Positions 558 to 51,060 of a stretch of DNA of 64,000 bases are shown in pieces; position 1 is the first letter of the stretch, and the number at the start of each line of letters is the position of its first letter. The DNA comes from Ectobius pallidus. Lineage: Eukaryota; Arthropoda; Insecta; Blattodea; Ectobiidae. The DNA lies in NCBI GenBank assembly GCA_964059195.1, contig CAXKWD010000009.1:43185160-43249159 (forward strand), read 5' to 3'. A program made the position numbers and the translations under genes. The notes below the pieces were generated by a model. It worked only from the letters and a program-made list of their open reading frames with translations, was not told the origin of the DNA and did not search any database.

Positions 558-3283
558 TGCAGCGATATTTGGACTGCTTATAGTTTGAACTTTATATCAC
601 AAAGGTAAATAGAGAGATAATTATTTATAAACGTTGCTAAATAATAAAACAGCAATAGGCGAATCCCATAACCTAACCAGCTACTATACTTAATTATCTT
701 CAAATAGCAGAAAAGAGGTAAAGACCAAAAAGGAATAATATTTAAATAATGCAATAACTAATGGGATGCCTAATCTGTTACAGAAGAGCTCGGAGAATGC
801 GTGAGGAAATGCCCTCAGAGGGAGATCGACTTCTTTTGTACCGGGCAGAGTAGAGGGCAAGTTTGCAATACCACATAGAAAACAGGTAGAATTCAACCAA
901 AGTAACAACTTTAATAAATACCATGGAACATCTCTCATAAAAGCAGAGTACAATACAACAAGCAACAATAATTACTCATATTAATAAATATTGCACATCA
1001 TACAAAATAAATATATCCTAACCAGTATATGTTCATCTTCAAGTTTATTATACCTAAATTGAATCCTCAATTCCAAATAATCTATCTTTTATTTAAGGAA
1101 AGCTGTACTAAATACCTAATCCCAATAATCCAGGATAAACAACTATAAATGGTATAGTGGAGAATAATAAGCTGAAGGCTTGATACCTGAGTATGTCAGA
1201 AGAAAGCTAAGTAGGCAACGGTGAATATAAGAAAGCCTCAAGTAAATCAAATCAATATATTAGGCCAATATTAAACAGCTAGAAAATATCGATAGCGACG
1301 AGGCATCAAACTATACTCACTAAGAATGAATAATGTCCCAAAATAATTTTACTAATGAGACTGGAACAAAATGCAAAGTTCAAAAAAAACAAAGGCCAAA
1401 GATAAATTTAGAAAAATGAAAGTTACCAGAAATACTAATATTCCAAAATAGTAGGCCTAGAATAATCTCAGGAAAATATAAGATACCAGAAATATTAAAG
1501 TTCCAAATGAATAGGCCTAGAATAATCTCAGGAATATATAAGGTATCAGAACTACTAATATTAGAAAACATTAGGCCTACAATAAATTTAGAAAAATGTA
1601 AGATACCAGCAATATTAAAGTTCCAAATGAATAGGCCTAGAATAATCTCAGGGATATATATATAGTATCAGAACTACTAATATTAGAAAACAGTAGGCCT
1701 ACAATAAATTTAGAAAAATATAAGTTACTAGCAATATTAAAGTTGCAACGAATAGGCCTAGAATAATCTCAGGGATATATAAAGTATCAGAAATGCCAAA
1801 TTTAGAAAACAGTAGGCCTAAAGGGAATTTTAGAAAAATTTAAAGTAACAGTGATGTTAAAGTTCCAAAAGGATAGGCCTAGAATAATCTCAAGTAACTT
1901 GACGAAGAACTCAGACTGAAAATGCAGTATATAATAATCGCACATACCAAGGGCAAATATAACTGAATCTCAATCAAAATTAGTAAATGAACTATTAAGT
2001 ATCAAAGGGTAACTATAAGAACTTGATGCAAATGAAATGAATTATGCTAGAAAGGTATAGGCCTAGCGAGATCAAATTCAAGAACAATTTTACAAGGATT
2101 TACTAGAAATGAATAGGCCTAGCGGGATCAAATTCAAGAACAATTTTACAAAGAATTAGGCCAGTAAAATCATCAATAGAACTTTGGTAAGTAACATAAC
2201 AGCCCCAGAGAAGATAAATTTAAATACGGACAGGCTTCACAATATCAATGACGAAACAGAATAGACCTATCCTAATTAATGGAAATTTTTCCTCCAATGC
2301 ATTACCAACTTATACTCAAGAAATTATCTGTATGAGAAATTCTAAAGTTCCAATTTTCATTTAAAGGTACATAAGGGTGGACATTAACTTGATTAAGAAA
2401 ATACTATTCTTTCCAAAATAATGGGAACATTACATTATATGTCTCATGTGCCTAGTAACAAGAATCATTTCAGGCCCAAACTTTAACATGGCGTTGATGC
2501 GTATGCAAGAAACGCCCCTTTCCTTGATCATTAAACATTGCATGACAGAAACATATCATTACAAATATCTGCAGCCTAATAAATTTCAATCTTCAATCAA
2601 AATGCATTATAAGAAATAATAATGATCATTAATAGGAGTGGGCGTTGCCAAAACTAATGAAACATGACTATCACGCCACTGAGTTTTCTACGTGAAAAAC
2701 ATGTATATTTGCATAATGATTAATTTGCAGGATCTTTCTGAAACATTGGTTATCTGCGCTGACCTACTATGAAAACTTGAAAGAGCATATGGGTGCTCTA
2801 ATATTACTTCACCATTAGACTAGCTACTCCACAAATTATTCAACATTATAATGGCAGTTAGCCTATCACGAAATGAGTTTCCTGTTAGCCCTAAATCTTT
2901 ACATGGTGCTAAATTTAATTGCTATAACTGACAATAAGTACCTTAAGGCTTGCTCTCTCTCTTTTATTTTCTTATGATGGGTGCTGAAGGCACAAAAGGT
3001 GAAATTAGGTTACGCCATAGTAAAATGTCGGTACTCACATACAGGAACGAGAGTAATTCTCCAGGCGACTCCCCCACAACCGTGCACTTTCACTCACTCA
3101 GCTGGTCTGGCTAAGGGGGTCCCCAGGCTCAAGATACTCGAGCTCCCCACTAGAGCGCGACACCGAACTAAGACGTAACCGCAAAGAGTTTAATAAGCAG
3201 AGAGAGGTAATTTATATTTCAAATATTACCATAGCAAAGCACTTAGACGAAACAGAGAGGAAATATAAATTACAACCATTACA
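558..3283 (-). repeat. Element 1 3' LTR (minus-strand sense)
   Basis: Copy one of the 2,726-bp repeat. Its higher-coordinate end (3283) is preceded, in element sense, by the polypurine tract, as expected for a 3' LTR. The LTR start, in element sense TGTAATGGTTG, lies close to a 14-bp inverted repeat (about 3208-3221 and 3259-3272). No difference from the other LTR was found in the stretches compared, including all shared open frames. Confidence 0.8.
1390..1890. repeat. Tandem array of about 60-bp units in LTR, copy 1
   Basis: About eight diverged units with a period near 60 bp, alternating two half-unit types (one ending in AATCTCAGG-like sequence, one in AATTTAGAAAAAT-like sequence). Each unit carries one TAGGCCTA (1452, 1512, 1572, 1632, 1694, 1753, 1813, 1874). 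Two further octamers at 2058 and 2114 sit in a second repeated phrase (gcgrgatcaaattcaagaac). Confidence 0.75.
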
Positions 3284-5033: not shown

Positions 5034-7759
5034 TGCAGCGATATTTGGACTGCTTATAGTTTGAACTTTATATCACAAAGGTAAATAGAGAGATAATTAT
5101 TTATAAACGTTGCTAAATAATAAAACAGCAATAGGCGAATCCCATAACCTAACCAGCTACTATACTTAATTATCTTCAAATAGCAGAAAAGAGGTAAAGA
5201 CCAAAAAGGAATAATATTTAAATAATGCAATAACTAATGGGATGCCTAATCTGTTACAGAAGAGCTCGGAGAATGCGTGAGGAAATGCCCTCAGAGGGAG
5301 ATCGACTTCTTTTGTACCGGGCAGAGTAGAGGGCAAGTTTGCAATACCACATAGAAAACAGGTAGAATTCAACCAAAGTAACAACTTTAATAAATACCAT
5401 GGAACATCTCTCATAAAAGCAGAGTACAATACAACAAGCAACAATAATTACTCATATTAATAAATATTGCACATCATACAAAATAAATATATCCTAACCA
5501 GTATATGTTCATCTTCAAGTTTATTATACCTAAATTGAATCCTCAATTCCAAATAATCTATCTTTTATTTAAGGAAAGCTGTACTAAATACCTAATCCCA
5601 ATAATCCAGGATAAACAACTATAAATGGTATAGTGGAGAATAATAAGCTGAAGGCTTGATACCTGAGTATGTCAGAAGAAAGCTAAGTAGGCAACGGTGA
5701 ATATAAGAAAGCCTCAAGTAAATCAAATCAATATATTAGGCCAATATTAAACAGCTAGAAAATATCGATAGCGACGAGGCATCAAACTATACTCACTAAG
5801 AATGAATAATGTCCCAAAATAATTTTACTAATGAGACTGGAACAAAATGCAAAGTTCAAAAAAAACAAAGGCCAAAGATAAATTTAGAAAAATGAAAGTT
5901 ACCAGAAATACTAATATTCCAAAATAGTAGGCCTAGAATAATCTCAGGAAAATATAAGATACCAGAAATATTAAAGTTCCAAATGAATAGGCCTAGAATA
6001 ATCTCAGGAATATATAAGGTATCAGAACTACTAATATTAGAAAACATTAGGCCTACAATAAATTTAGAAAAATGTAAGATACCAGCAATATTAAAGTTCC
6101 AAATGAATAGGCCTAGAATAATCTCAGGGATATATATATAGTATCAGAACTACTAATATTAGAAAACAGTAGGCCTACAATAAATTTAGAAAAATATAAG
6201 TTACTAGCAATATTAAAGTTGCAACGAATAGGCCTAGAATAATCTCAGGGATATATAAAGTATCAGAAATGCCAAATTTAGAAAACAGTAGGCCTAAAGG
6301 GAATTTTAGAAAAATTTAAAGTAACAGTGATGTTAAAGTTCCAAAAGGATAGGCCTAGAATAATCTCAAGTAACTTGACGAAGAACTCAGACTGAAAATG
6401 CAGTATATAATAATCGCACATACCAAGGGCAAATATAACTGAATCTCAATCAAAATTAGTAAATGAACTATTAAGTATCAAAGGGTAACTATAAGAACTT
6501 GATGCAAATGAAATGAATTATGCTAGAAAGGTATAGGCCTAGCGAGATCAAATTCAAGAACAATTTTACAAGGATTTACTAGAAATGAATAGGCCTAGCG
6601 GGATCAAATTCAAGAACAATTTTACAAAGAATTAGGCCAGTAAAATCATCAATAGAACTTTGGTAAGTAACATAACAGCCCCAGAGAAGATAAATTTAAA
6701 TACGGACAGGCTTCACAATATCAATGACGAAACAGAATAGACCTATCCTAATTAATGGAAATTTTTCCTCCAATGCATTACCAACTTATACTCAAGAAAT
6801 TATCTGTATGAGAAATTCTAAAGTTCCAATTTTCATTTAAAGGTACATAAGGGTGGACATTAACTTGATTAAGAAAATACTATTCTTTCCAAAATAATGG
6901 GAACATTACATTATATGTCTCATGTGCCTAGTAACAAGAATCATTTCAGGCCCAAACTTTAACATGGCGTTGATGCGTATGCAAGAAACGCCCCTTTCCT
7001 TGATCATTAAACATTGCATGACAGAAACATATCATTACAAATATCTGCAGCCTAATAAATTTCAATCTTCAATCAAAATGCATTATAAGAAATAATAATG
7101 ATCATTAATAGGAGTGGGCGTTGCCAAAACTAATGAAACATGACTATCACGCCACTGAGTTTTCTACGTGAAAAACATGTATATTTGCATAATGATTAAT
7201 TTGCAGGATCTTTCTGAAACATTGGTTATCTGCGCTGACCTACTATGAAAACTTGAAAGAGCATATGGGTGCTCTAATATTACTTCACCATTAGACTAGC
7301 TACTCCACAAATTATTCAACATTATAATGGCAGTTAGCCTATCACGAAATGAGTTTCCTGTTAGCCCTAAATCTTTACATGGTGCTAAATTTAATTGCTA
7401 TAACTGACAATAAGTACCTTAAGGCTTGCTCTCTCTCTTTTATTTTCTTATGATGGGTGCTGAAGGCACAAAAGGTGAAATTAGGTTACGCCATAGTAAA
7501 ATGTCGGTACTCACATACAGGAACGAGAGTAATTCTCCAGGCGACTCCCCCACAACCGTGCACTTTCACTCACTCAGCTGGTCTGGCTAAGGGGGTCCCC
7601 AGGCTCAAGATACTCGAGCTCCCCACTAGAGCGCGACACCGAACTAAGACGTAACCGCAAAGAGTTTAATAAGCAGAGAGAGGTAATTTATATTTCAAAT
7701 ATTACCATAGCAAAGCACTTAGACGAAACAGAGAGGAAATATAAATTACAACCATTACA
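5034..7759 (-). repeat. Element 1 5' LTR (minus-strand sense)
   Basis: Copy two of the 2,726-bp terminal repeat; TG and CA at its ends. Its lower-coordinate end abuts the primer-binding site, which identifies it as the 5' LTR of a minus-strand element. It contains a tandem array of about 60-bp units (5866-6366) rich in TAGGCCTA. Short open frames inside it, such as those near 5166-5444 and 5856-6047, recur unchanged in the other LTR only because the DNA is identical; none resembles a known protein. Confidence 0.8.
5866..6366. repeat. Tandem array of about 60-bp units in LTR, copy 2
   Basis: The same array inside the other LTR, displaced by 4,476 bp. Unit number and variants agree with copy 1, so no unit has been gained or lost since the two LTRs were made. 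Confidence 0.75.
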
Positions 7760-15183: not shown

Positions 15184-15954
15184 TGTGCCGCCTATATTTC
15201 GGCACACTGTATAATGTTCTTTTATGCCAAAGGTACTTACTATTATCTCGGTGGTCATCTCGCCTCGCGGACTGTTTTCATTTTCATTTTTCTCCTTTTT
15301 TCCTATCTCGCTGTTTTCTGACGTCACGAAGTCACGTGTTCCGGTTTGCTGGTAGATTTTTCGTGAGGGTTTAAGGCCTCGCTTCACGAACCTTTGAGAA
15401 TTCAAGACCAGACTTCGGAAGCGAGCGGTTCTTCTTGGAGTCCATAGCCTAGGACTCCTCCTTAAGCTCAGGTATGCGGTAGTTTTTTCTGAGTCTTTTC
15501 ATATTTCTTTGTACCTGGTGGGTTTCTTTTGTTGCGTTTATTTCACTGCCGATTATGTTTAGTTAAGTTAGTTTGTTTTTGCCCACCAGTGTTTTTGTTT
15601 ATTATTAAATTTATTATTCTCTTCTGTTATTTTTAGTTTATTATATTCGGTACAGTCTTATCAGTCGTAACTTCTTTCCGTGAGTTGAGATGGACACACA
15701 CCCCCCCCCCCCCGTTGTTCTTATGGAGTTAGGGTGTTTAGGTATTTTCTTTTACATATTGTATGGCCTAATTGTTTCTTGGTTTATTAACCTAACAAAG
15801 TTTGTAATAAATTGTTGAATCTGGTTTCAGTATTTCTGTATTTATAGGTATATTACGTTCCCTTCTTCTATCCTTACTGTATTTTTCATTAAATTTTCTG
15901 TACGGCTCTGGAATTGCCCCTAATTATGGTGGCAGGCCCGAGAGGCACGCCACA
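15184..15954 (+). repeat. Element 2 5' LTR (copy A)
   Basis: 771 bp, starting TGTGCCG and ending CACGCCACA. The first 23 bases form a hairpin with a 7-bp stem, TGTGCCG against CGGCACA. It has a 13-base poly(C) run preceded by acacaca. It contains TGACGTCA and CACGTG near position 140. Open frames on its minus strand recur in the other copies only as DNA copies. Confidence 0.8.
15319..15338 (+). promoter_or_regulatory. Possible CRE and E-box in element 2 LTR
   Basis: TGACGTCA (15319-15326) followed seven bases later by CACGTG (15333-15338). These match the CREB/ATF and bHLH palindromes. Both sites are retained in the other LTR copies (19706-19725 and 21005-21024). A role in LTR transcription is inferred from location only. 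Confidence 0.35.
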
Positions 15955-15957
15955 AAG

Positions 15958-15969
15958 TGGTAGCAGAGC
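15958..15969 (+). other. Element 2 primer-binding site (initiator tRNA-Met)
   Basis: TGGTAGCAGAGC begins three bases after the 5' LTR. It is complementary to the last 12 bases of initiator tRNA-Met including CCA; complementarity ends there (the next bases are tcgtcg). The same 12 bases follow copy B of the LTR, but there the match to the tRNA continues to 58 bases. Confidence 0.85.
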
Positions 15970-18900
15970 TCGTCGATCTCTGATTTTCAGTTATTTTGTC
16001 CGTTTTTCTGTAAAAATTTTCAAAATTTTCTAAATTTTCAATTTTTTTATTATCCAGTTTTCGGGTTAGGGTAGTCATCTAATTTTTTTTCCCCTGTCAG
16101 GTTAGTAGTTTCATTATTTTTCATGGCTGTATAGCCCCGGCGGTCTTACTGTGAGCGTTATGCTTTATTTTTCAGTATTTGTACCATGCCGTTTCATATT
16201 TTCTTCTATTTCTGCTCTCTGCGTTCTGGTGAAATTTTCGTCAGATACGTAGGGTAATTGCTTTTGTTCCGGCAGTCTCACTAGAGCAAGTCTCTGTGGG
16301 TTTTTTTGCTGTCGGGTTTTGTTTGCTTGAGGCAGGGTAGTAAGTTTTTTTTTGAGCCGTTTCCGTGCTGCTTTCCGTGATGTTTTGTGTCCGTAAGACT
16401 GTGTTCATCAGCAATGTCTGGTGTTTAACTGGCCAGTCTTTTCGAGGCCTATTTTTCCGGGGGCGGTGCGTGTGGTTTGTGCTTTGTTTTCATATCTTTT
16501 CATGCTTTAGCTGCCTGTTTTCTTTGGGAATATTTTGTCTAGCCCGTCTGCTGTTCTGTTTTGATATCTTGCCTAGTAATTTTGCCATATGCACCATTCA
16601 TCCACAGTCTTGCTGTTTTCTGAAGTTAGGTTAGGGGCTTGCTGGTTCAAGGAATTTCCCGGGTTCTGTTCCGGTAGGTCTTCTTTTCTATGCCCACGAA
16701 ACATGAATTCGCAAGTTTTTTTAATAAGTAAATTGTAAATTATTTTCATCTAGTCTGAAACTTTTTCTAGTATATTTCCTATAGGTTCCATACCGTATTT
16801 CATTTCTATTTTTGCTCTCAGCGTTATGACGGAATTTTTTTTTTGTCTGTTATGTTGGGCTAGTGGCATCTGTTCTAGTCAGTCTCACGTGAGTAGTTAT
16901 CTGTGCTTTCTGAACTATGGGTTTTATTGGCGGAATAGTTTTGTAACCTTTATTACAGTCTTCCGTGGTTGGGTCCTAGTATAATTTTCTGGGTTTTTCC
17001 GAGGTTATTTTCCGGTCATTTCTTTGCCCGATAAACGTGTCTCATCAGCAAAGTTCTGGTGTTTTTTGGACCGTTTTGGTGGTAGTTTGTCCGAGGAAGT
17101 TTTCCGGATGTTGCCCGCCCGATCGACGTGTTTTGTTATGGGGTAAGTTTTGTCAAAATTTTCTATCGAATTTAACCTGATATCTTTGGGATTTGTCTAG
17201 TCTTACACCGTTTGCCTTGATTTTGGTTCCTTTTAAAAATATTTCGCATTTGCATGACCTATTTCGGCGTCCAGTGCCGTAGTTTGGCTTTGCTTATTCA
17301 AAATTTCTCTCTCATTCATTCAGTAAATAATAAATTTTCTCCAGATTTCTTTATTCAATTTAGTAAGTACAAATATGCCAGTTTTCTCTTTTCACTTTTG
17401 CTAAATTTATCATGAATATTTAATCATGCTTTACATTCTGTAATTACATTATAATTTTATTCTTTCTCTAAATTTTCTTCGTATTCTTTCTTCGTCCGTT
17501 TGTCTCGGGTTTTTGCCTTTATTCTTGCTGTCCTTTGCGTGTGGGTGTTGGCCATCTTTCCTTTTTTTTTTTTTTTTTTTGGTTCTTTTGTTTTTTTTTT
17601 TTTTCTTCTTTCTTTTGCCGCATACCTGGTGCTCTGGAGTTTACTCTCCGCTGACTCTGAAATAAAAAAGCATAGCAACGAAATTAAGTCGCTCTAATAA
17701 TAAATTATTTACATTAATATTTTGAGCGTTGAGCGCTGCTATCTCCAAAAATCGGATGGCGTTCTTTTATGTAATACAGGAAAAAGAATTATAGCATACT
17801 GTTGTAACAATTATTGTAAACAAAAAATATATTTTTTATTAACTGTATTTGACTAAATAAATTAACTAGGCCTATGAGCGTTGAATTTATGTGCATAGAA
17901 AAACATATAAGTTATATAGAGATATTTTATAAAAACAAAAAACTCATCGATATTGTAAAGGATGTTTGTGCCCTAGGTTCATTTTCGTCGCTTCAGTTGT
18001 AATTCTTTCCTTTGCGTTTGCTAAACAAATTTAGACTTAAAGAAGTTCTGGTCTTGCCTAAATTAGCTTTCGACAATTTTCTAAGTGCACTTATCTTTAG
18101 GACATGTCCTACTTTGTCACTTAATGACCAAAACTTTCTATTTTTATATGTGCGTGGTATTTGTATTTTTTTACTCTTATTATGTTTTGTAGGTACGGTT
18201 CGCGGGTAGTGTTTTGCTGTTAGCACTGTTGACTTCCCTTATTATAGAGCGCTCAAATACTTATTACCATGGAACCATATCTGGAAGTCTTCACTAATTA
18301 TCCACTCCCGTTTCCGTTCCTAAAATTTCCATCATTATGCATTCCTTGAAGTCCGCACTTCATAATATCATATCCTCATACCACGATTTCATAATTTCAT
18401 CGCATTTTCATATCATAACATCCTCATACCATAACATCGTAACATCTTGACATCACAACAATTCTACATTATCAAATCATTTTCATTAAAATTTTGTCTA
18501 ATTTTATTCTAATTGTGTAATTGTTTTTACTTGCAACTGTATATAAATATTTCAAAGCATATGCTATTCAATGATAGTTTATTATACATTGCTTTATTGT
18601 GCTGATATTTCAGCTAGTATTTTCTCTTGTATATATAAATTTAACTATCGTAATTGTATTTAATGTAAATATTCTTTAAATTTAATTAATTTTCATGTCA
18701 TTTTTGTAAATAGATTTTTCTATTGTAATACAATTTCTAATTGTGGTCCCTTCAGGACAACTTCACTCTTCGCCGTATTGAATTAATTAAAATTTATATA
18801 AAAAAAAACTTTCAGCAAAATAAAATAAAATAAAAACAGGTACCGGTAGATTGTTTTTACATAAAACACTATAGGGGGTAATTTGTTTGTAAGTACCTTT

Positions 18901-19556
18901 TTCTGCCGCTGTATTTATTGATTTCAGCTTTCTATGTATGTTCGGATTGTGTCTGGTGACTCCCTTGGCATCTACGCTGTTCTCTTCTTTGCTGGATGTG
19001 GCGCTAAGTCTTCACTCTACGAACTCCTGAGGCCACATTTTGTCTACGGTGCTCAGATTCTCCTGGTTGCATGTTGAAGACGTTCAACTTGGTTCCTTTT
19101 GACCTGAAAATAATCATCAGGTCCGGCATCAGTGAGGATTTGCTGCTATATCTTCGGTTTGGGTACATACACATTGTACCTGTCTTCATTCAAGCATGCA
19201 GAGTCAACTACTATATTCTACTCACCATTACTACCCAAGAGTACTCATTGTGATGGGGTATGTGTTGAAAAGGACTCCACTACCCCGTTATTCACTACAT
19301 TAATTACAGTAACAAATGGACTTGGTAAGCTGTAAATACACAAGTTTATGTATGTATTTTCTACTCCAATTTATTAGATGGACTATTATTATGAATCCAT
19401 TGTCTACAGTTAAAATGGTGTTATAGTACATTCTTTTGTGGACCTCCTCGTGAGTTGTAGAAGTGAAGTGAAGATATAAACTTTTCCAATCTGCTCTGCA
19501 ATAAAATTTATTTTTCGAAAAACATTTTTGAATTCTTCAAAAATGTTTTTCTTTCT
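15970..19556 (+). other. Element 2 interior, non-coding
   Basis: About 3.6 kb of T-rich DNA, including poly(T) runs near 17560-17605 and a short degenerate cat-rich repeat at about 18350-18480. No reverse transcriptase, integrase, protease or gag motif was found on either strand. The stretch around 18745-18840 (ggtcccttcaggacaac and a run of AAAATA units) resembles the tail of a retroposon and may be a nested insertion. From 18927 to its end the interior is repeated in inverted form at 21160-21803. Confidence 0.6.
19518..19550 (+). other. Perfect 15-bp hairpin before the polypurine tract
   Basis: AAAAACATTTTTGAA, a 3-base loop TTC, and TTCAAAAATGTTTTT. It lies 11 bases before the GAGGGAG tract and is conserved in the inverted copy. 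It could be an RNA structure of the element, for example for packaging or 3' processing; that is inference. Confidence 0.7.
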
Positions 19557-19561
19557 GCGTC

Positions 19562-19568
19562 GAGGGAG
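19562..19568 (+). other. Element 2 polypurine tract
   Basis: GAGGGAG, then TC, then the 3' LTR start TGTGCCG. It is short but placed correctly, and it resembles the AGAGGGGAG tract of element 1. Confidence 0.55.
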
Positions 19569-19570
19569 TC

Positions 19571-20336
19571 TGTGCCGCCTATATTTCGGCACACTGTATA
19601 ATGTTCTTTTATGCCAAAGGTACTTACTATTATCTCGGTGGTCATCTCGCCTCGCGGACTGTTTTCATTTTCATTTTTCTCCTTTTTTCCTATCTCGCTG
19701 TTTTCTGACGTCACGAAGTCACGTGTTCCGGTTTGCTGGTAGATTTTTCGTGAGGGTTTAAGGCCTCGCTTCACGAACCTTTGAGAATTCAAGACCAGAC
19801 TTCGGAAGCGAGCGGTTCTTCTTGGAGTCCATAGCCTAGGACTCCTCCTTAAGCTCAGGTATGCGGTAGTTTTTTCTGAGTCTTTTCATATTTCTTTGTA
19901 CCTGGTGGGTTTCTTTTGTTGCGTTTATTTCACTGCCGATTATGTTTAGTTAAGTTAGTTTGTTTTTGCCCACCAGTGTTTCTGTTTATTATTAAATTTA
20001 TTATTCTCTTCTGTTATTTTTAGTTTATTATATTCGGTACAGTCTTATCAGTCGTAACTTCTTTCCGTGAGTTGAGATGGACACACCCCCCCCCGTTGTT
20101 CTTATGGAGTTAGGGTGTTTAGGTATTTTCTTTTACATATTGTATGGCCTAATTGTTTCTTGGTTTATTAACCTAACAAAGTTTGTAATAAATTGTTGAA
20201 TCTGGTTTCAGTATTTCTGTATTTATAGGTATATTACGTTCCCTTCTTCTATCCTTACTGTCTTTTTTCATTATTTTTTTTGTACGGCTCTGGAAATGCC
20301 CCTAATTATGGTGGCAGGCTCGAGAGGCACGCCACA
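19571..20336 (+). repeat. Element 2 3' LTR (copy B)
   Basis: 766 bp, same ends as copy A. Compared with A it has tttctg for tttttg, a shorter poly(C) run (9 C), and several changes near the end: gtctttttt for gtattttt, aaatgccc for aattgccc, ggctcga for ggcccga. The inverted copy C agrees with A at these terminal sites, so B carries the derived end. Confidence 0.8.
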
Positions 20337-20338
20337 AG

Positions 20339-20396
20339 TGGTAGCAGAGCGTAGTTTCGATCCACGGACCTCTGGGTTATGGGCCCAGCACGCTTC
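20339..20396 (-). pseudogene. Initiator tRNA-Met copy, 5'-truncated (58 nt)
   Basis: Read on the minus strand this is the 3' 58 nt of an initiator tRNA-Met including the CCA end. It contains the anticodon arm GGGCCCATAACCC with anticodon CAT and the initiator-type GGG/CCC stem, the T arm with ATCGAAA loop, and the acceptor 3' strand GCTCTGCTACCA. The first about 17 nt, up to the D loop, are missing, so it cannot be a functional tRNA gene. The templated CCA, absent from eukaryotic tRNA genes, shows that the sequence came from mature tRNA, as expected if it was copied from the primer of an LTR element. It starts exactly where the primer-binding site should follow the LTR. Confidence 0.9.
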
Positions 20397-21803
20397 TCGG
20401 GCCTGCCACCATAATTAGGGGCAATTCCAGAGCCGTACAGAAAATTTAATGAAAAATACAGTAAGGATAGAAGAAGGGAACGTAATATACCTATAAATAC
20501 AGAAATACTGAAACCAGATTCAACAATTTATTACAAACTTTGTTAGGTTAATAAACCAAGAAACAATTAGGCCATACAATATGTAAAAGAAAATACCTAA
20601 ACACCCTAACTCCATAAGAACAACGGGGGGGGGGGGGGGGGGTGTGTGTCCATCTCAACTCACGGAAAGAAGTTACGACTGATAAGACTGTACCGAATAT
20701 AATAAACTAAAAATAACAGAAGAGAATAATAAATTTAATAATAAACAGAAACACTGGTGGGCAAAAACAAACTAACTTAACTAAACATAATCGGCAGTGA
20801 AATAAACGCAACAAAAGAAACCCACCAGGTACAAAGAAATATGAAAAGACTCAGAAAAAACTACCGCATACCTGAGCTTAAGGAGGAGTCCTAGGCTATG
20901 GACTCCAAGAAGAACCGCTCGCTTCCGAAGTCTGGTCTTGAATTCTCAAAGGTTCGTGAAGCGAGGCCTTAAACCCTCACGAAAAATCTACCAGCAAACC
21001 GGAACACGTGACTTCGTGACGTCAGAAAACAGCGAGATAGGAAAAAAGGAGAAAAATGAAAATGAAAACAGTCCGCGAGGCGAGATGACCACCGAGATAA
21101 TAGTAAGTACCTTTGGCATAAAAGAACATTATACAGTGTGCCGAAATATAGGCGGCACAGACTCCCTCGACGCAGAAAGAAAAACATTTTTGAAGAATTC
21201 AAAAATGTTTTTCGAAAAATAAATTTTATTGCAGAGCAGATTGGAAAAGTTTATATCTTCACTTCACTTCTACAACTCACGAGGAGGTCCACAAAAGAAT
21301 GTACTATAACACCATTTTAACTGTAGACAATGGATTCATAATAATAGTCCATCTAATAAATTGGAGTAGAAAATACATACATAAACTTGTGTATTTACAG
21401 CTTACCAAGTCCATTTGTTACTGTAATTAATGTAGTGAATAACGGGGTAGTGGAGTCCTTTTCAACACATACCCCATCACAATGAGTACTCTTGGGTAGT
21501 AATGGTGAGTAGAATATAGTAGTTGACTCTGCATGCTTGAATGAAGACAGGTACAATGTGTATGTACCCAAACCGAAGATATAGCAGCAAATCCTCACTG
21601 ATGCCGGACCTGATGATTATTTTCAGGTCAAAAGGAACCAAGTTGAACGTCTTCAACATGCAACCAGGAGAATCTGAGCACCGTAGACAAAATGTGGCCT
21701 CAGGAGTTCGTAGAGTGAAGACTTAGCGCCACATCCAGCAAAGAAGAGAACAGCGTAGATGCCAAGGGAGTCACCAGACACAATCCGAACATACATAGAA
21801 AGC
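20397..21803 (-). mobile_element. Truncated inverted copy of element 2
   Basis: Reverse complement of 18927-20323 of element 2. It has an LTR (20397-21159, copy C) lacking the last 13 bp of U5 (gaggcacgccaca), and 644 bp of the 3' interior (21160-21803) including hairpin and polypurine tract. Positions mirror element 2 around 20365 (sum 40730). Copy C matches copy A, not B, near the U5 end, has an 18-base G/C run, and matches B at the tttctg site. It is therefore a separate or mosaic copy, not a simple fold-back of B. At 21803 similarity ends; the matching point in the plus copy follows ttgatttcag, which looks like a 3' splice site. Confidence 0.85.
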
Positions 21804-22078
21804 AATAGGACAAACCTAAAACAAATATTAAATTTGCTCTGTTAATATTTTGCATAACATACACAATTAAGATCTTAGTATTAAAAATGAAAAAGATGGA
21901 AAATTGCAATTTTTATTGCAAATTCTATGCAACAGTCAGAGTAGAGCTTAATAATAACATTATGATATTGATAAATTAGGTGGAAACCTAACAGAAACTG
22001 AACAATCCTATGTAAATAATTAATACGTCAGTGCGTTTTGCTGATTTCTAGAATGACGTTAGTATTCTTCTGTTTCAG
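21804..22078. other. Spacer right of the palindrome
   Basis: AT-rich; no recognised feature until a pyrimidine-rich tract and CAG that could be a 3' splice site (ends at 22078). Confidence 0.4.
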
Positions 22079-33656: not shown

Positions 33657-35063
33657 CTTAATGAGCAGATATGGAAAAAAAGAAATACAAACTTATTATT
33701 TTGGAAGAAGAGCATCATATGCCCCATACATAAGAAGGGAGACAAACTAAAATGTAGCAACTATAGAGGAATCTGCTTATTATCTACATCCTACAAAATA
33801 TTTACGGGAATTCTGAAAAAATGATTAGAGAATTATTCAGAGAGGATTGTTGGAGAATATCAAACCGGTTTCAGACCAGGAAGATCTACAACGGATAACT
33901 TATTTATCCTGAGGCAAATAACAGAAAAAAGTTGGGAACACAATATAGATCTATATATGATCTTTATAGACTTCAGACAGGCTTATGATAGTGTAGACAG
34001 AAGGAAACTAGAAACCACTTTAAGGAACTTTGGAATTCCCAGGAAATTGGTGAATCTAATTATGCTAACCATGACAGAAACAACAAACCAGGTTAAAATA
34101 CAAAATGAACTGACTGGAAGTTTTGACACTAGACAAGGGCTGAAACAAGGTGATGGGTTAGCACCCCTTCTATTTAACTTGATTCTTGAGCATGTGATAA
34201 GACAAACAACAATAGAGGCGAATAGCACAATAGCATACAAATCCTCGCAGATATTGGCATATGCTGATGATATAGCTATAGTGTCCAGATCCATGAAGGC
34301 AGTTGGAGAGGTCTATAAAGAGATAAAAGCAAGTGCAAGGACCGTGGGATTAGAGATAAATCTGAGTAAGACAAAAAGCATGATACAATCACGTAAACAA
34401 TATCTGCAGAAGGACAAGATAAGGATAGATGATGACGAGATAGAAATGGTGGAAGAATTTATATATCTGGGATCCGTATTTCGAAAGGATGGAGATGGTA
34501 GTGGTGAAATAAAGAGGAGAATAGGCTTGGCTAATAAAGCCAATTTCTCACTACAGTCAGCATTCAAATGCAAAGATGTACATAGGTCCACTAAAATGAG
34601 ATTATATAAAACCATGATAAGACCAACATTGTGGTATGCATGTGAGAGCTGGACTCTTAATAAAAAAGATGAAAATGCTCTCAACACTTTTGAAAGAAAG
34701 ATCTTAAGACGCATTTTAGGACCAATAAATGAAAATGGAATATGGAGGCTCAGGTATAATAAAGAAGTTTATGACAGGTTTAAGGAGCCCTGCATCTCAA
34801 CAACGATTAAATTCAAAAGATTGCAGTGGGTTGGACATGTAATTCGCATGGGAAAGGAACGGATACCACTTAAAATCATGCAGAATGAATTTGGGGGCAG
34901 GAGACCAGCAGGCAAACCGAAAAATAGATGGCTGGATGCAGTGGAGATGGATGTGAGACAACTTATGGGACTCAGAAATTGGAGGAGGACAGCCCTGGAT
35001 AGACAAGGATGGAGAGGTTTATTACGGGAGGCCAAGGCCCGACATCGGGCTGTAGCGCCATAG
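33657..35063 (+). pseudogene. LINE reverse transcriptase, nearly open, 5'-truncated
   Basis: One frame runs from about 33660 through IICPIHKKGDKL, a single TGA stop at 33822-33824, and then 368 codons from the ATG at 33957 to the stop at 35061. Reverse-transcriptase motifs are in order: CSNYRGICLL, YQTGFRPGRSTTDN, motif A FIDFRQAYDSVD, motif B RQGLKQGDGLAPLLFNLI, motif C YADD (residues 102-105 of the ATG frame), then YLGSVF and, near the C-terminus, LQWVGHVIRMG and GRRPAGKPKNRW. It ends in a short (GAA)n tail (35064-35074), typical of truncated LINE insertions. The endonuclease domain and the 5' part are missing. It belongs to non-LTR retrotransposons; I cannot fix the clade. Apart from the one stop the frame is intact, so the copy is young. 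Confidence 0.9.
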
Positions 35064-46210: not shown

Positions 46211-46870
46211 CGAGGGGGAGTCCAAAAATAACTTCCCCCTCTATTTTTCCCAAGGAAATCGAACAGAAATTAGGGAAACAAGACATGGGTTGAACGCGAA
46301 AGACACCCATACACCATTAGGTATCGTTTGACCGCGATCCAGCAGATGGTTTTGTTGCTGGACTTTTTGGAGGATGGAAACATCACTGCTACTCTGTACG
46401 CCGTGTCGAAATTGAAGGAGGCGATTCGGAAAAAAAAGCGGCCTGGCTTTCTCCAATCTGGCGTTCTGCTGTTGGATGACAATGCGAGACCACACTCGGC
46501 GACGGCAACGCAAAACCATATTGCAACTCTTGGTTGGGAATGCCTAGCCCATCCGCCATACAGTCCTGATCTCGCACCCATTGACTTCCATCTGTTTCCG
46601 GCTTTGAAGAAGACTCTCGGCGGGAGGCGCTTTGGGAGCACTGCTGACGTCACACAAGCCGTTTTACGCTTCTTGCTTGTGCAGAATCCTGATCTTTTTC
46701 CTGGAGGGCTTTTAGAAGCTTCTAAAGTGGTATGATAAATGTCTCAATGTACGTGGTTATGTGGAAAAATAAAGGTACGTCTTAACTTTAATGTCTCATT
46801 ATATTTTTTGTCTTTCATCCACATCTCTGTATACAGTCGCCGGGGAAGCTTATTTTCGGACTCACCCTCT
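46211..46870 (+). mobile_element. Internally deleted mariner element
   Basis: 660 bp between TA dinucleotides (46209-46210 and 46871-46872), the mariner target-site duplication. The left end CGAGGGGGAGTCCAAAAATA and the right end (reverse complement) AGAGGGTGAGTCCGAAAATA are imperfect inverted repeats that continue into a shared CTTCCCC. An intact mariner is about 1.3 kb, so roughly half is missing, namely the N-terminal half of the transposase. Confidence 0.9.
46328..46735 (+). pseudogene. Mariner transposase, C-terminal part
   Basis: A 135-codon frame with LLLDDNARPH (second catalytic Asp, residue 51) and HPPYSPDLAPIDFHLF (third Asp, residue 86); 34 residues lie between them, the mariner D34D signature. 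GGRRFGSTADVTQAVLRFL and the C-terminal region follow, but the ending is shortened. The helix-turn-helix DNA-binding domain and the first catalytic Asp are missing, so it is inactive. The start is arbitrary since similarity begins without a natural initiation site. Confidence 0.9.
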
Positions 46871-48849: not shown

Positions 48850-51060
48850 GCGAGGGCTAAAAAAAAAATTTTTCACCAGATATCAAAAGAGAAAGGGAAA
48901 ATCTCCGCACATGGTGTGCATTAAAATCCGCTTATCCTCATAACAAAATTTTTTATGAAAACTTTTTAAAGGTGCGACTAAAATACAGGCAAACTTTAAG
49001 AGAAGCTAAACACAAGTTTTACGAAAACAAAATTCAAGCAGTACCAAATCAAAATAAAATGCTGTGGAATCTAGTCAAAGAAAACACTAATATAATTCAA
49101 ACCCACAATAAAAATTTAGAACTGATAATAAATAACAATATAGTTAATAACCCGATTGACGTGGCTAACTATTTCAATAGCTATTTTATAAGCATAGGAA
49201 GTATGCTTGCAAATAACAATAACCAAATGAATAACCTCACCACAAATACCAAATCTATCTTTCTAACACCAATCAATGACGATGAACTAGTAAAAGTAAT
49301 AAAAAGTATGCCAGCCAAAAAGTCAAGCGGGTATGATGAAATTCCCCCTACTGTTATCAAAAATGCATACAAAGGACTTACCAAAATCTTATGTCATCTG
49401 TTTAATGAAGTCTTCATACAGGGCATATTCCCTCAAAAACTCAAAATTGCCAGGGTCAAACCTATTATTTTATAAAAAGGGAGATGTCATGCAAGTGGAT
49501 AATTATAGACCAATCTCACTACTACCCACCTTTTCTAAAATCCTTGAGAAATTAATACATAACAGGTTAATCAATTTCTTTAACAAATACAACATCCTGC
49601 GCCCCAATCAACATGGGTTCAGACAAAATAGGTCTACAGTAACAGCCGTAAACGACTTCACAAACACCGTTTTAACTGCATTAGACTGTAAAAAAAAAGA
49701 ATGTGTATCTGCTGCGATCTAACTAAAGCCTTTGATACAGTCAGTCATTCACTTCTTTTAAGCAAACTTGATAACTATGGAGTAAGAGGAATTTGCCTAG
49801 ACCTCTTGAAATCATAGCTAACAGTAAGAACCCAACAAGTACAAATAACTTACATAGACGAACACGGTAAATCTCAAGAATACATTTCTGAAAGCAAAGT
49901 AGTGCAGTATGGGGTACCCCAGGGATCCATCCTGGGCCCCCTTATTTTTTTTGGTATATATAAATAAATGTACAAATAAAGGGAAATTTGTCATATATGC
50001 TGATGATAGTAACGTAATTGTAACAAGACAAAATGTGACTGAACTAAAAACCAACTATTTAGAAATTGAAAAAAGCATGAACCACTGGTTTCAATGTAAC
50101 AATTTAACAATGAATGAGAGTAAAACAAAGAATATATATTTCAACACCCACTATAGTAAAACCCAACATCTAACCACTTTAAATCTAGGTACGAAAGAAA
50201 TTACGCTAGAAAGCTCAGCCAAATTCCTCGGTATCCATATTGACACTCATCTAAACTGGAAAGATCATTGCATACATGTAAGTAAAAAACTAAGCTCTAC
50301 CATCTACCTGTTAAGAAATATTAGAGACCTAGTATCAATAAAATCATTAATTAATATATACTACGGAATTTTCTACTCACATCTAAATTATGGAATAATT
50401 TTTTGGGGGAATTCAAGCGAAAGCGAAAACATATTCAAATTACAAAAAAGAGCCCTTCGAATTATATTTAAATTAAGTAGAAGGCATTCATGCAGAAATA
50501 TCTTTAAAAACAATAATATCCTCACTATGACTGGTATGTACTTATATGAGTTACTTAAACTGATAACAACAAATGAACCAAATATCAACAAAAATAAAGA
50601 TATTCATGACCATGAGACAAGAACAGCAAATAATATAGCAATAACTAGACACAATCTTCAAATAACAGCAATGAGTCCCATTGCTATGGGAATCAAAATA
50701 TTCAATAAGCTTCCCCATGAGGTGAAGAATTTGTCCGAAATCAAATTCTGTAGAACTATACGACATGTACTAGTAACTAATGCATATTATTCCTTGAATG
50801 ACTTTAATCCAAATAACTTCATACTTCAATAATAATATTTTTATTTTTATTTTTAATCCTGTTCATAGTTTTTAATAGATAAACTTGACATACATTTCTT
50901 CTTGTTAGAACAAGGGATCGACTTGAACTTAATCTCTCCAAACAACTATTTGTAATTTCCCTGAAGCGAAGCATTTTGTTTGGAAATTTATGACAATGTT
51001 CAATAGGAACTCTACTATGTAGAACCTCAATGAACAATAAAGATTATTATTATTATGATT
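48850..51060 (+). pseudogene. LINE reverse transcriptase, frameshifted, with 3' UTR
   Basis: A second non-LTR family. The order along four frames is: the region before the polymerase (48880-49466, RQTLREAKHKFYENKIQAV, then AKKSSGYDEIPP); frameshift near 49467; NYRPISLLPTFSKILEKL and QHGFRQNRSTVTAV (to about 49705); frameshift; motif [14 protein letters not shown], a TAG stop at 49814-49816, motif B YGVPQGSILGPLIF; frameshift at a T run near 49945; motif C YADD (49996-50007), then NMESKTK-like and KFLGIHIDTHLNWKDH and the conserved FKLQKRALRII; stop near 50830. About 230 bp of 3' UTR ends in (ATT)n at 51040-51058. The endonuclease is missing. The pattern resembles the jockey/CR1 group; I am not sure of the clade. 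Confidence 0.9.

Follow-up and report, generated by a model that had tools for sequence, protein, structure and literature searches.

Inverted LTRs hinged on a long complement of initiator tRNA-Met in Ectobius pallidus: a probable fossil of failed second-strand transfer

We analyzed a stretch of 64,000 nt from Ectobius pallidus (hereafter the window; C9:43185160-43249159 of one 2.12-Gb assembly in 410 contigs), in which an LTR runs into a 58-nt complement of initiator tRNA-Met and from there into a second, inverted LTR. The window preserves a real by-product of plus-strand synthesis that over-extended past tRNA position A58 and then switched template, and it is probably the fossil of a failed second-strand transfer by an LTR retrotransposon primed by initiator tRNA-Met. 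Slippage past A58 is known from HIV biochemistry; the palindromic form, fossilized in a germ line, was not seen in the titles and abstract openings searched.

The tRNA copy and the palindrome around it

The original prediction placed the complement of the 3' 58 nt of initiator tRNA-Met (A76 to G19) directly behind the 3' LTR, and its coordinates are correct: positions 20339 to 20396 (forward strand, as are all features below unless stated) hold exactly 58 nt, from TGGTAGCAGAG to CACGCTTC. An AG (20337 to 20338) links the copy to the LTR end (CA), as before a primer-binding site (PBS). Alignment to genomic copies bore out the tRNA's identity, with 57 of 58 bases matching the initiator tRNA-Met copy at L014 without gaps (difference at tRNA position 62). 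Against the tRNA type of a tandem array, 54 of 55 bases were identical (difference at position 52); this array (C1:150474173-150525869; L015-L038) consists of initiator-tRNA-like units, many of them 141 bp apart, that lack CCA. The G52/U62 combination of the window copy belongs to neither main tRNA type and is present in 2 of the 58 non-duplicate copies defined below. ARAGORN and Rfam recognized no tRNA in the window. We rejected a tRNA gene or pseudogene at this place, given that no tRNA is recognizable and that the CCA complement adjoins the LTR end.

As predicted, the 5' LTR is followed by a primer match of only 12 bases (TGGTAGCAGAGC, 15958 to 15969, behind AAG, the two together spanning 15955 to 15969). 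With up to one mismatch allowed, the 11-mer TGGTAGCAGAG matched the window twice, in the tRNA copy and in the PBS, both times exactly (0.48 matches expected by chance). The CCA complement, which the prediction pointed out as missing from tRNA genes, is indeed present but carries no independent weight, since a PBS includes it too; the independent evidence in the copy is the 46 nt beyond the 12-base PBS. The normal stop at about 18 nt is seen in the same family, where the PBS of L068 is exactly 18 nt of tRNA complement. In the window, U5 is followed by unprocessed end bases and by more than 18 nt of primer-tRNA complement, the composition of an over-extended strong-stop DNA.

The element itself is a non-autonomous LTR retrotransposon, with LTRs, a PBS, a purine tract, and no coding capacity. 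Its 5' LTR (15184 to 15954, U5 type A) is preceded by AGGC, and the interior (15970 to 19570), in which no coding capacity was recognized, closes with the purine-rich GAGGGAGTC; searching its six frames against Pfam gave two weak matches (E of 0.029 and 0.091), both under the curated cut-off. The 3' LTR follows at 19571 to 20336, with a U5 of type B from about 20229-20262 on. Self-comparison of the window revealed an inverted repeat of ∼2.9 kb (18927 to 21803) centered on the tRNA copy and ordered as LTR, tRNA copy, and inverted LTR plus 644 bp of interior. The left arm starts at 18927 in the portion of the interior that the right arm repeats (18927 to 19570) and runs through the 3' LTR, while the right arm consists of an inverted LTR (20397 to 21159, reverse strand; U5 type A minus its last bases) and the inverted interior portion (21160 to 21803, 644 bp, reverse strand), with which the insertion ends. 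A fossil of plus-strand synthesis beyond A58 is supported, but not a singular, simply extended LTR end: the tRNA copy forms the turning point of a palindrome that includes a second LTR. An ordinary insertion carries an LTR at both ends; this one has an LTR at 15184 and interior sequence, without an LTR, at 21803. The AGGC that precedes 15184 is absent from 21804-22000, and hence the insertion has no 4-bp target duplication.

A splice-acceptor-like TTTCAG lies at the left outer edge of the palindrome (18917-18927). An origin of the right arm from a spliced RNA, for which this edge (18926) would be the site, was rejected, as the right flank and the element shared only short matches (longest, 21 bases), and the same comparison found no leader-like sequence beyond the right edge of the palindrome. 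Elsewhere, the window holds a 2726-bp direct repeat whose copies (558-3283 and 5034-7759) are 100% identical, open frames for putative pieces of LINE reverse transcriptase (33825-35063 and 48861-50832), and an open frame that is presumably a piece of a mariner-type transposase (46274-46735).

Two U5 types within one element

The two arms of the palindrome differ only in a single CA/C run and in the final stretch of the left U5. To place this difference within the family, in which a search gave at least 41 LTR matches (40 of 236 candidates were scored), we aligned 30 LTRs, 3 from the window and 27 from fetched loci. At site 15881, the left arm has a T found otherwise only in L045 and L067, with A in the other 27; at site 15848, the left arm agrees with the 5' LTR and differs from L045 and L067; and at site 15598, T is shared by all three LTRs of the window, against A in the remaining 27. 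Position and spacing identify L045 and L067 as the LTR pair of a single element on C3. Type B leaves two further U5 changes of the left arm, at 15898 and 15938, unexplained; both are private, as is one change of the 5' LTR (15595). Judging by the aligned sites, the left-arm U5 is from a different subfamily than the U5 of the right arm and of the 5' LTR, with the switch between 20229 and 20262.

An ordinary LTR copy has the same U5 in both of its LTRs; the 5' and 3' LTRs of the window element differ in theirs. The left arm carries type B and the right arm type A; therefore, at least two templates took part, and we dropped a pure intramolecular snap-back for the window. The U5 difference would fit two RNAs in a single particle and an abnormal second transfer.

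Family members elsewhere show what an ordinary end looks like. The nine LTR ends of the family whose junction with host DNA was seen (L049, L053, L057, L059, L060, L063, L064, L066, and L067) end in CACA or a variant of it, and all nine are free of tRNA sequence, as expected if the tRNA copy is not a fixed part of the element's leader. Because these ends also lack AG, the AG or AAG before the tRNA copy and the PBS represents an unprocessed end. Family 5' LTRs are followed by an ordinary PBS and leader, and 4-bp target duplications in the family include GATC (L041/L049), GTAC (L053), and GCGG (L059).

Extended tRNA copies across the genome

Other LTRs with an extended tRNA complement were looked for with TGGTAGCAGAGCGTNGTTTCGATC (24 nt, comprising the CCA complement and T arm). 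Allowing up to one mismatch, the assembly contained 65 such places, window included (L009-L012, L014, and L069-L127), all of them dispersed, CCA-bearing, and extending past A58; the reversed control gave 0. With 65 copies, mostly with different far flanks, the window is not a singular case. The perfect 18-nt tRNA end occurred at 498 places (reversed control, 0), among which lie 64 of the 65 extended places, the exception being L106 with a mismatch within the first 18 nt; the other 434 were counted only, and extensions of greater divergence may be among them. Each of the 65 places was read with its flanks, the far flanks mostly over ∼110-170 bases, and the counts are lower bounds. Removal of six local duplicates (L089, L125, L126, L127, L114, and L124) and of L014 left 58 non-duplicate copies, within which the local pair L104/L105 counts twice; L014 was set aside as gene-like, yet it is LTR-flanked, and n is 59 where it is included.

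On the CCA side, 41 of the 58 copies shared their LTR ends with others, in 17 recurrent groups, and the other 17 had ends of their own. Far flanks differed among copies of the same group, except in the local pair L104/L105 and in the window and L074, both palindromic; the extended copies are mostly independent insertions. Copy lengths peaked at 61 nt (15/58), followed by 60 nt (8/58), both in the D loop, with 64-66 nt in 10/58; these lengths are ungapped and undercount copies with inner gaps, such as L080 and L073. The end points may reflect modified bases of the tRNA. A pattern for the anticodon arm had 218 genomic matches, so that tRNA-like copies are many in this genome. A pattern for another primer type, TGGTATCAGAGC, was dropped, with 86 matches versus 57 in its reversed control.

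Among the 24 one-mismatch places, 19 differ exactly at tRNA position 58 (P about 1e-20, assuming an even spread and corrected for 23 positions), and 18 of 22 do so when L114 and one of L104/L105 are left out. Position 58 was changed in 19 of the 58 non-duplicate copies versus 37 of 3261 other cells, the bases found there being A (12), C (6), and G (1) on the complement strand. A58 itself is present in 25 of 25 distinct tandem-array tRNA copies examined. This excess seems to be as expected for bypass of m1A58 by reverse transcriptase, taking A58 of the E. pallidus initiator tRNA to be methylated as in other organisms. Position 26 gave a weak hint of the same kind of excess (changed in 3/46; P = 0.013). 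Opposite A58, the 58-nt copy of the window carries the right base and, because of this, does not itself show a methylated template.

An inverted second LTR directly follows the tRNA copy at 5 of the 65 places (window, L074, L077, L109, and L121), which fall in four LTR-end groups; L103 was also scored as a palindrome, with an offset. Target duplications lie outside the palindrome in three of the five, namely ATGT (L074), ATAG (L121), and ATAT (L077); therefore, such palindromes probably can form before insertion. L077 reads ATAT, LTR of 719 bp, 61 nt of tRNA, inverted LTR of 718 bp, ATAT, with no mismatch between its arms, and L121 reads ATAG, LTR of 1337 bp, 64 nt of tRNA, inverted LTR of 1333 bp, ATAG, with 9 arm mismatches and the wrong base at position 58. 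Both have the shape that a folded-back plus-strand strong-stop DNA would take, with U3 at both outer ends. Two of the five palindromes thus comprise nothing but a pair of inverted LTRs and the tRNA between them; the regions L137 (C3:25040700-25045300) and L136 (C10:16329400-16334000) hold elements of this make-up, with the 4-bp target duplications ATAT and ATAG. L074, of the window's family, has LTRs at both ends, the ATGT duplication, and an inner LTR-tRNA-LTR palindrome that, by eye, passes into the interior at an ∼11-base match. The arms of L109 are 94% alike, and no clear target duplication was found there.

Other fates of the over-long strand were also seen. In 6 of 59 places (L079, L085, L086, L087, L091, and L097), the tRNA copy is followed by U5 again, in direct orientation, and then by a PBS (shuffled controls, mean 0.5 and maximum 3; a seventh match, L011, 824 bases away, was discounted). 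At these places, synthesis seems to have resumed after the over-long strand slid back onto U5. L014, L078, and L092 have direct U5 repeats too, with L014 (C1:98395876 region) reading U5-tRNA-U5-tRNA and one of its tRNA copies changed at position 58. By eye, L073, L095, and L103 resemble two ends joined tail to tail with a PBS stub preserved. In the remaining 42 of 59, the tRNA copy is followed by other DNA. Four of six such places examined (L118, L111, L100, and L081, from two LTR families) consist of a single LTR, starting at TG and running through U5, with 61 nt of tRNA behind it, and look like inserted plus-strand strong-stop DNA; a 4-bp target duplication was sought at these four and not found. 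The other two (L096 and L117) have only ∼58 bp of U5 in common upstream of the copy, and their LTR starts were not found.

Origin of the palindrome and what it may record

The window strand is continuous from U3-R-U5 through AG and the tRNA complement, past A58 to G19, into the reverse-complement LTR and 644 bp of interior. We propose that a type B RNA gave rise to minus-strand strong-stop DNA that was transferred to a type A RNA, and that plus-strand synthesis then ran through the m1A58 block. The 3' end, now too long, would no longer have fitted the PBS; its last bases, GCTTC, could have paired with GAGGC of a sister plus-sense U5 and been extended back along the sister plus strand, yielding a palindromic DNA. 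The type A U5 of the 5' LTR may have been supplied by another strong-stop DNA. The left end begins at TG, as it would after integrase action, and the right end, without an LTR, was probably joined by host repair.

The tRNA over-extension could be real and the palindrome still be the work of host end joining, with two linear cDNAs joined tail to tail, an account that we consider unlikely but worth weighing. The junction match is 6/9, a value reached by 0.8% of stop-and-landing pairs, and such short microhomology fits end joining equally well; in addition, the arms differ in U5 type, as two molecules would, the right end of the window has neither LTR nor target duplication, and, by eye, a PBS stub of the second end seems to be kept at the joins in L073, L095, and L103. 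Against end joining, the arms of L077 and L121 are near-equal in length and both end exactly at U3, with target duplications; L074 switches again inside its palindrome, for which a copying strand is the simpler account; and direct re-copying of U5 (6/59) speaks for a template switch at this very step. An assembly or sequencing artefact, in which a fold-back chimeric read made the palindrome, would explain why, judged on the assembly alone, most of one arm is identical to the other and the window palindrome has no target duplication. We consider it highly improbable, given that the differences between the arms are those of a real subfamily (L045/L067), that it leaves the 46 nt of tRNA outside the PBS without a source, and that palindromes with target duplications occur elsewhere, in other families.

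Two further origins were already disfavored and have very little to recommend them. Recombination of a tRNA gene with a PBS, or a tRNA pseudogene that a LINE placed next to an LTR, would draw on the many genomic tRNA-like copies (the 218 anticodon-arm matches) and on the identity of the copy's first 12 nt with the PBS; yet the copies begin exactly at CCA, directly behind recurrent LTR ends, and their mismatches gather at position 58, where the array copies (25/25) have A58. It is similarly hard to credit the tRNA stretch as an inherited module of certain elements, such as an enlarged PBS or leader: while many copies exist, and 6/59 places have a U5 end and PBS behind the tRNA, far flanks differ within LTR groups, and family 5' LTRs lead into the ordinary PBS and leader.

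Over-extension with template switching has partial counterparts in other systems. Work by Guo in 1997 is said to have found minus-strand strong-stop DNA self-priming at the HIV TAR; there too, the 3' end of a strong-stop DNA folds back and is extended, but on the minus strand, whereas here the plus strand is involved and the hinge is a tRNA. A study of Ty1 posed the same question as ours, whether sequence of the primer tRNA becomes part of the new copy, and to judge from its title the answer was no; in our case, the genome did receive long tRNA copies. For HIV-1, plus-strand strong-stop synthesis is described in a review as halting at m1A58, with a main product of 18 nt and minor longer ones, and as extending past A58 when TRMT6-TRMT61A is mutated or A58 lacks its methyl group (PMC13191261). 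The plus strand likewise passes A58 into the primer tRNA here; unlike those of HIV-1, the products are chromosomal, 19/58 are wrong at position 58, and some form LTR-tRNA-LTR palindromes. HIV-1 2-LTR circle junctions can hold PBS or tRNA-primer sequence (PMC5618025), so that primer-derived sequence stands behind the U5 end in both cases, in circle junctions there and in integrated, inverted U5-tRNA-U5 joins with 58-64 nt of tRNA here. The reverse-transcription signature of m1A, wrong nucleotides opposite the modified base, including at tRNA position 58, is described for laboratory cDNA libraries (PMC4787781); ours is in genomic DNA. Chimeras of tRNA and LINE-1 also join tRNA sequence to a retroelement copy, but they are LINE-1-made and involve mostly half tRNAs (PMC13174262), whereas here the tRNA is an LTR primer and its CCA is joined to U5. 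Helenus and Ajax, non-autonomous and related to small-RNA genes, are also LTR elements tied to tRNA-like sequence; by the opening of the abstract they are an element type (PMC10886601), in contrast to the one-off reverse-transcription products here. In titles and abstract openings, with few subscription journals covered, we found no description of genomic LTR-tRNA-LTR palindromes or of an m1A58 mark in genomic LTR copies, which is weak evidence of absence.

In the literature consulted, the m1A58 stop is known from HIV and from in vitro studies. Several LTR families of E. pallidus seem to show failure of the stop, followed by copying into the D loop, frequent insertion of a wrong base at A58, turn-back, and integration. 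We lean toward the view that breakthrough at m1A58 yields a distinct class of integrable palindromes, U3-R-U5-tRNA-U5'-R'-U3', which integrase can insert via the two outer U3 ends, and that the genome thereby serves as an archive of tRNA modification; this would be evidence for the use of two U3 ends by integrase. If so, the palindromes, together with the single-LTR and U5-reiteration forms, archive the modification of the primer tRNA, and the stops and misreadings of the copies report germ-line tRNA methylation at the time each copy was made. They would constitute a countable in vivo record of primer-tRNA modification and retrotransposon template switching, and the survey is applicable to any good long-read assembly.
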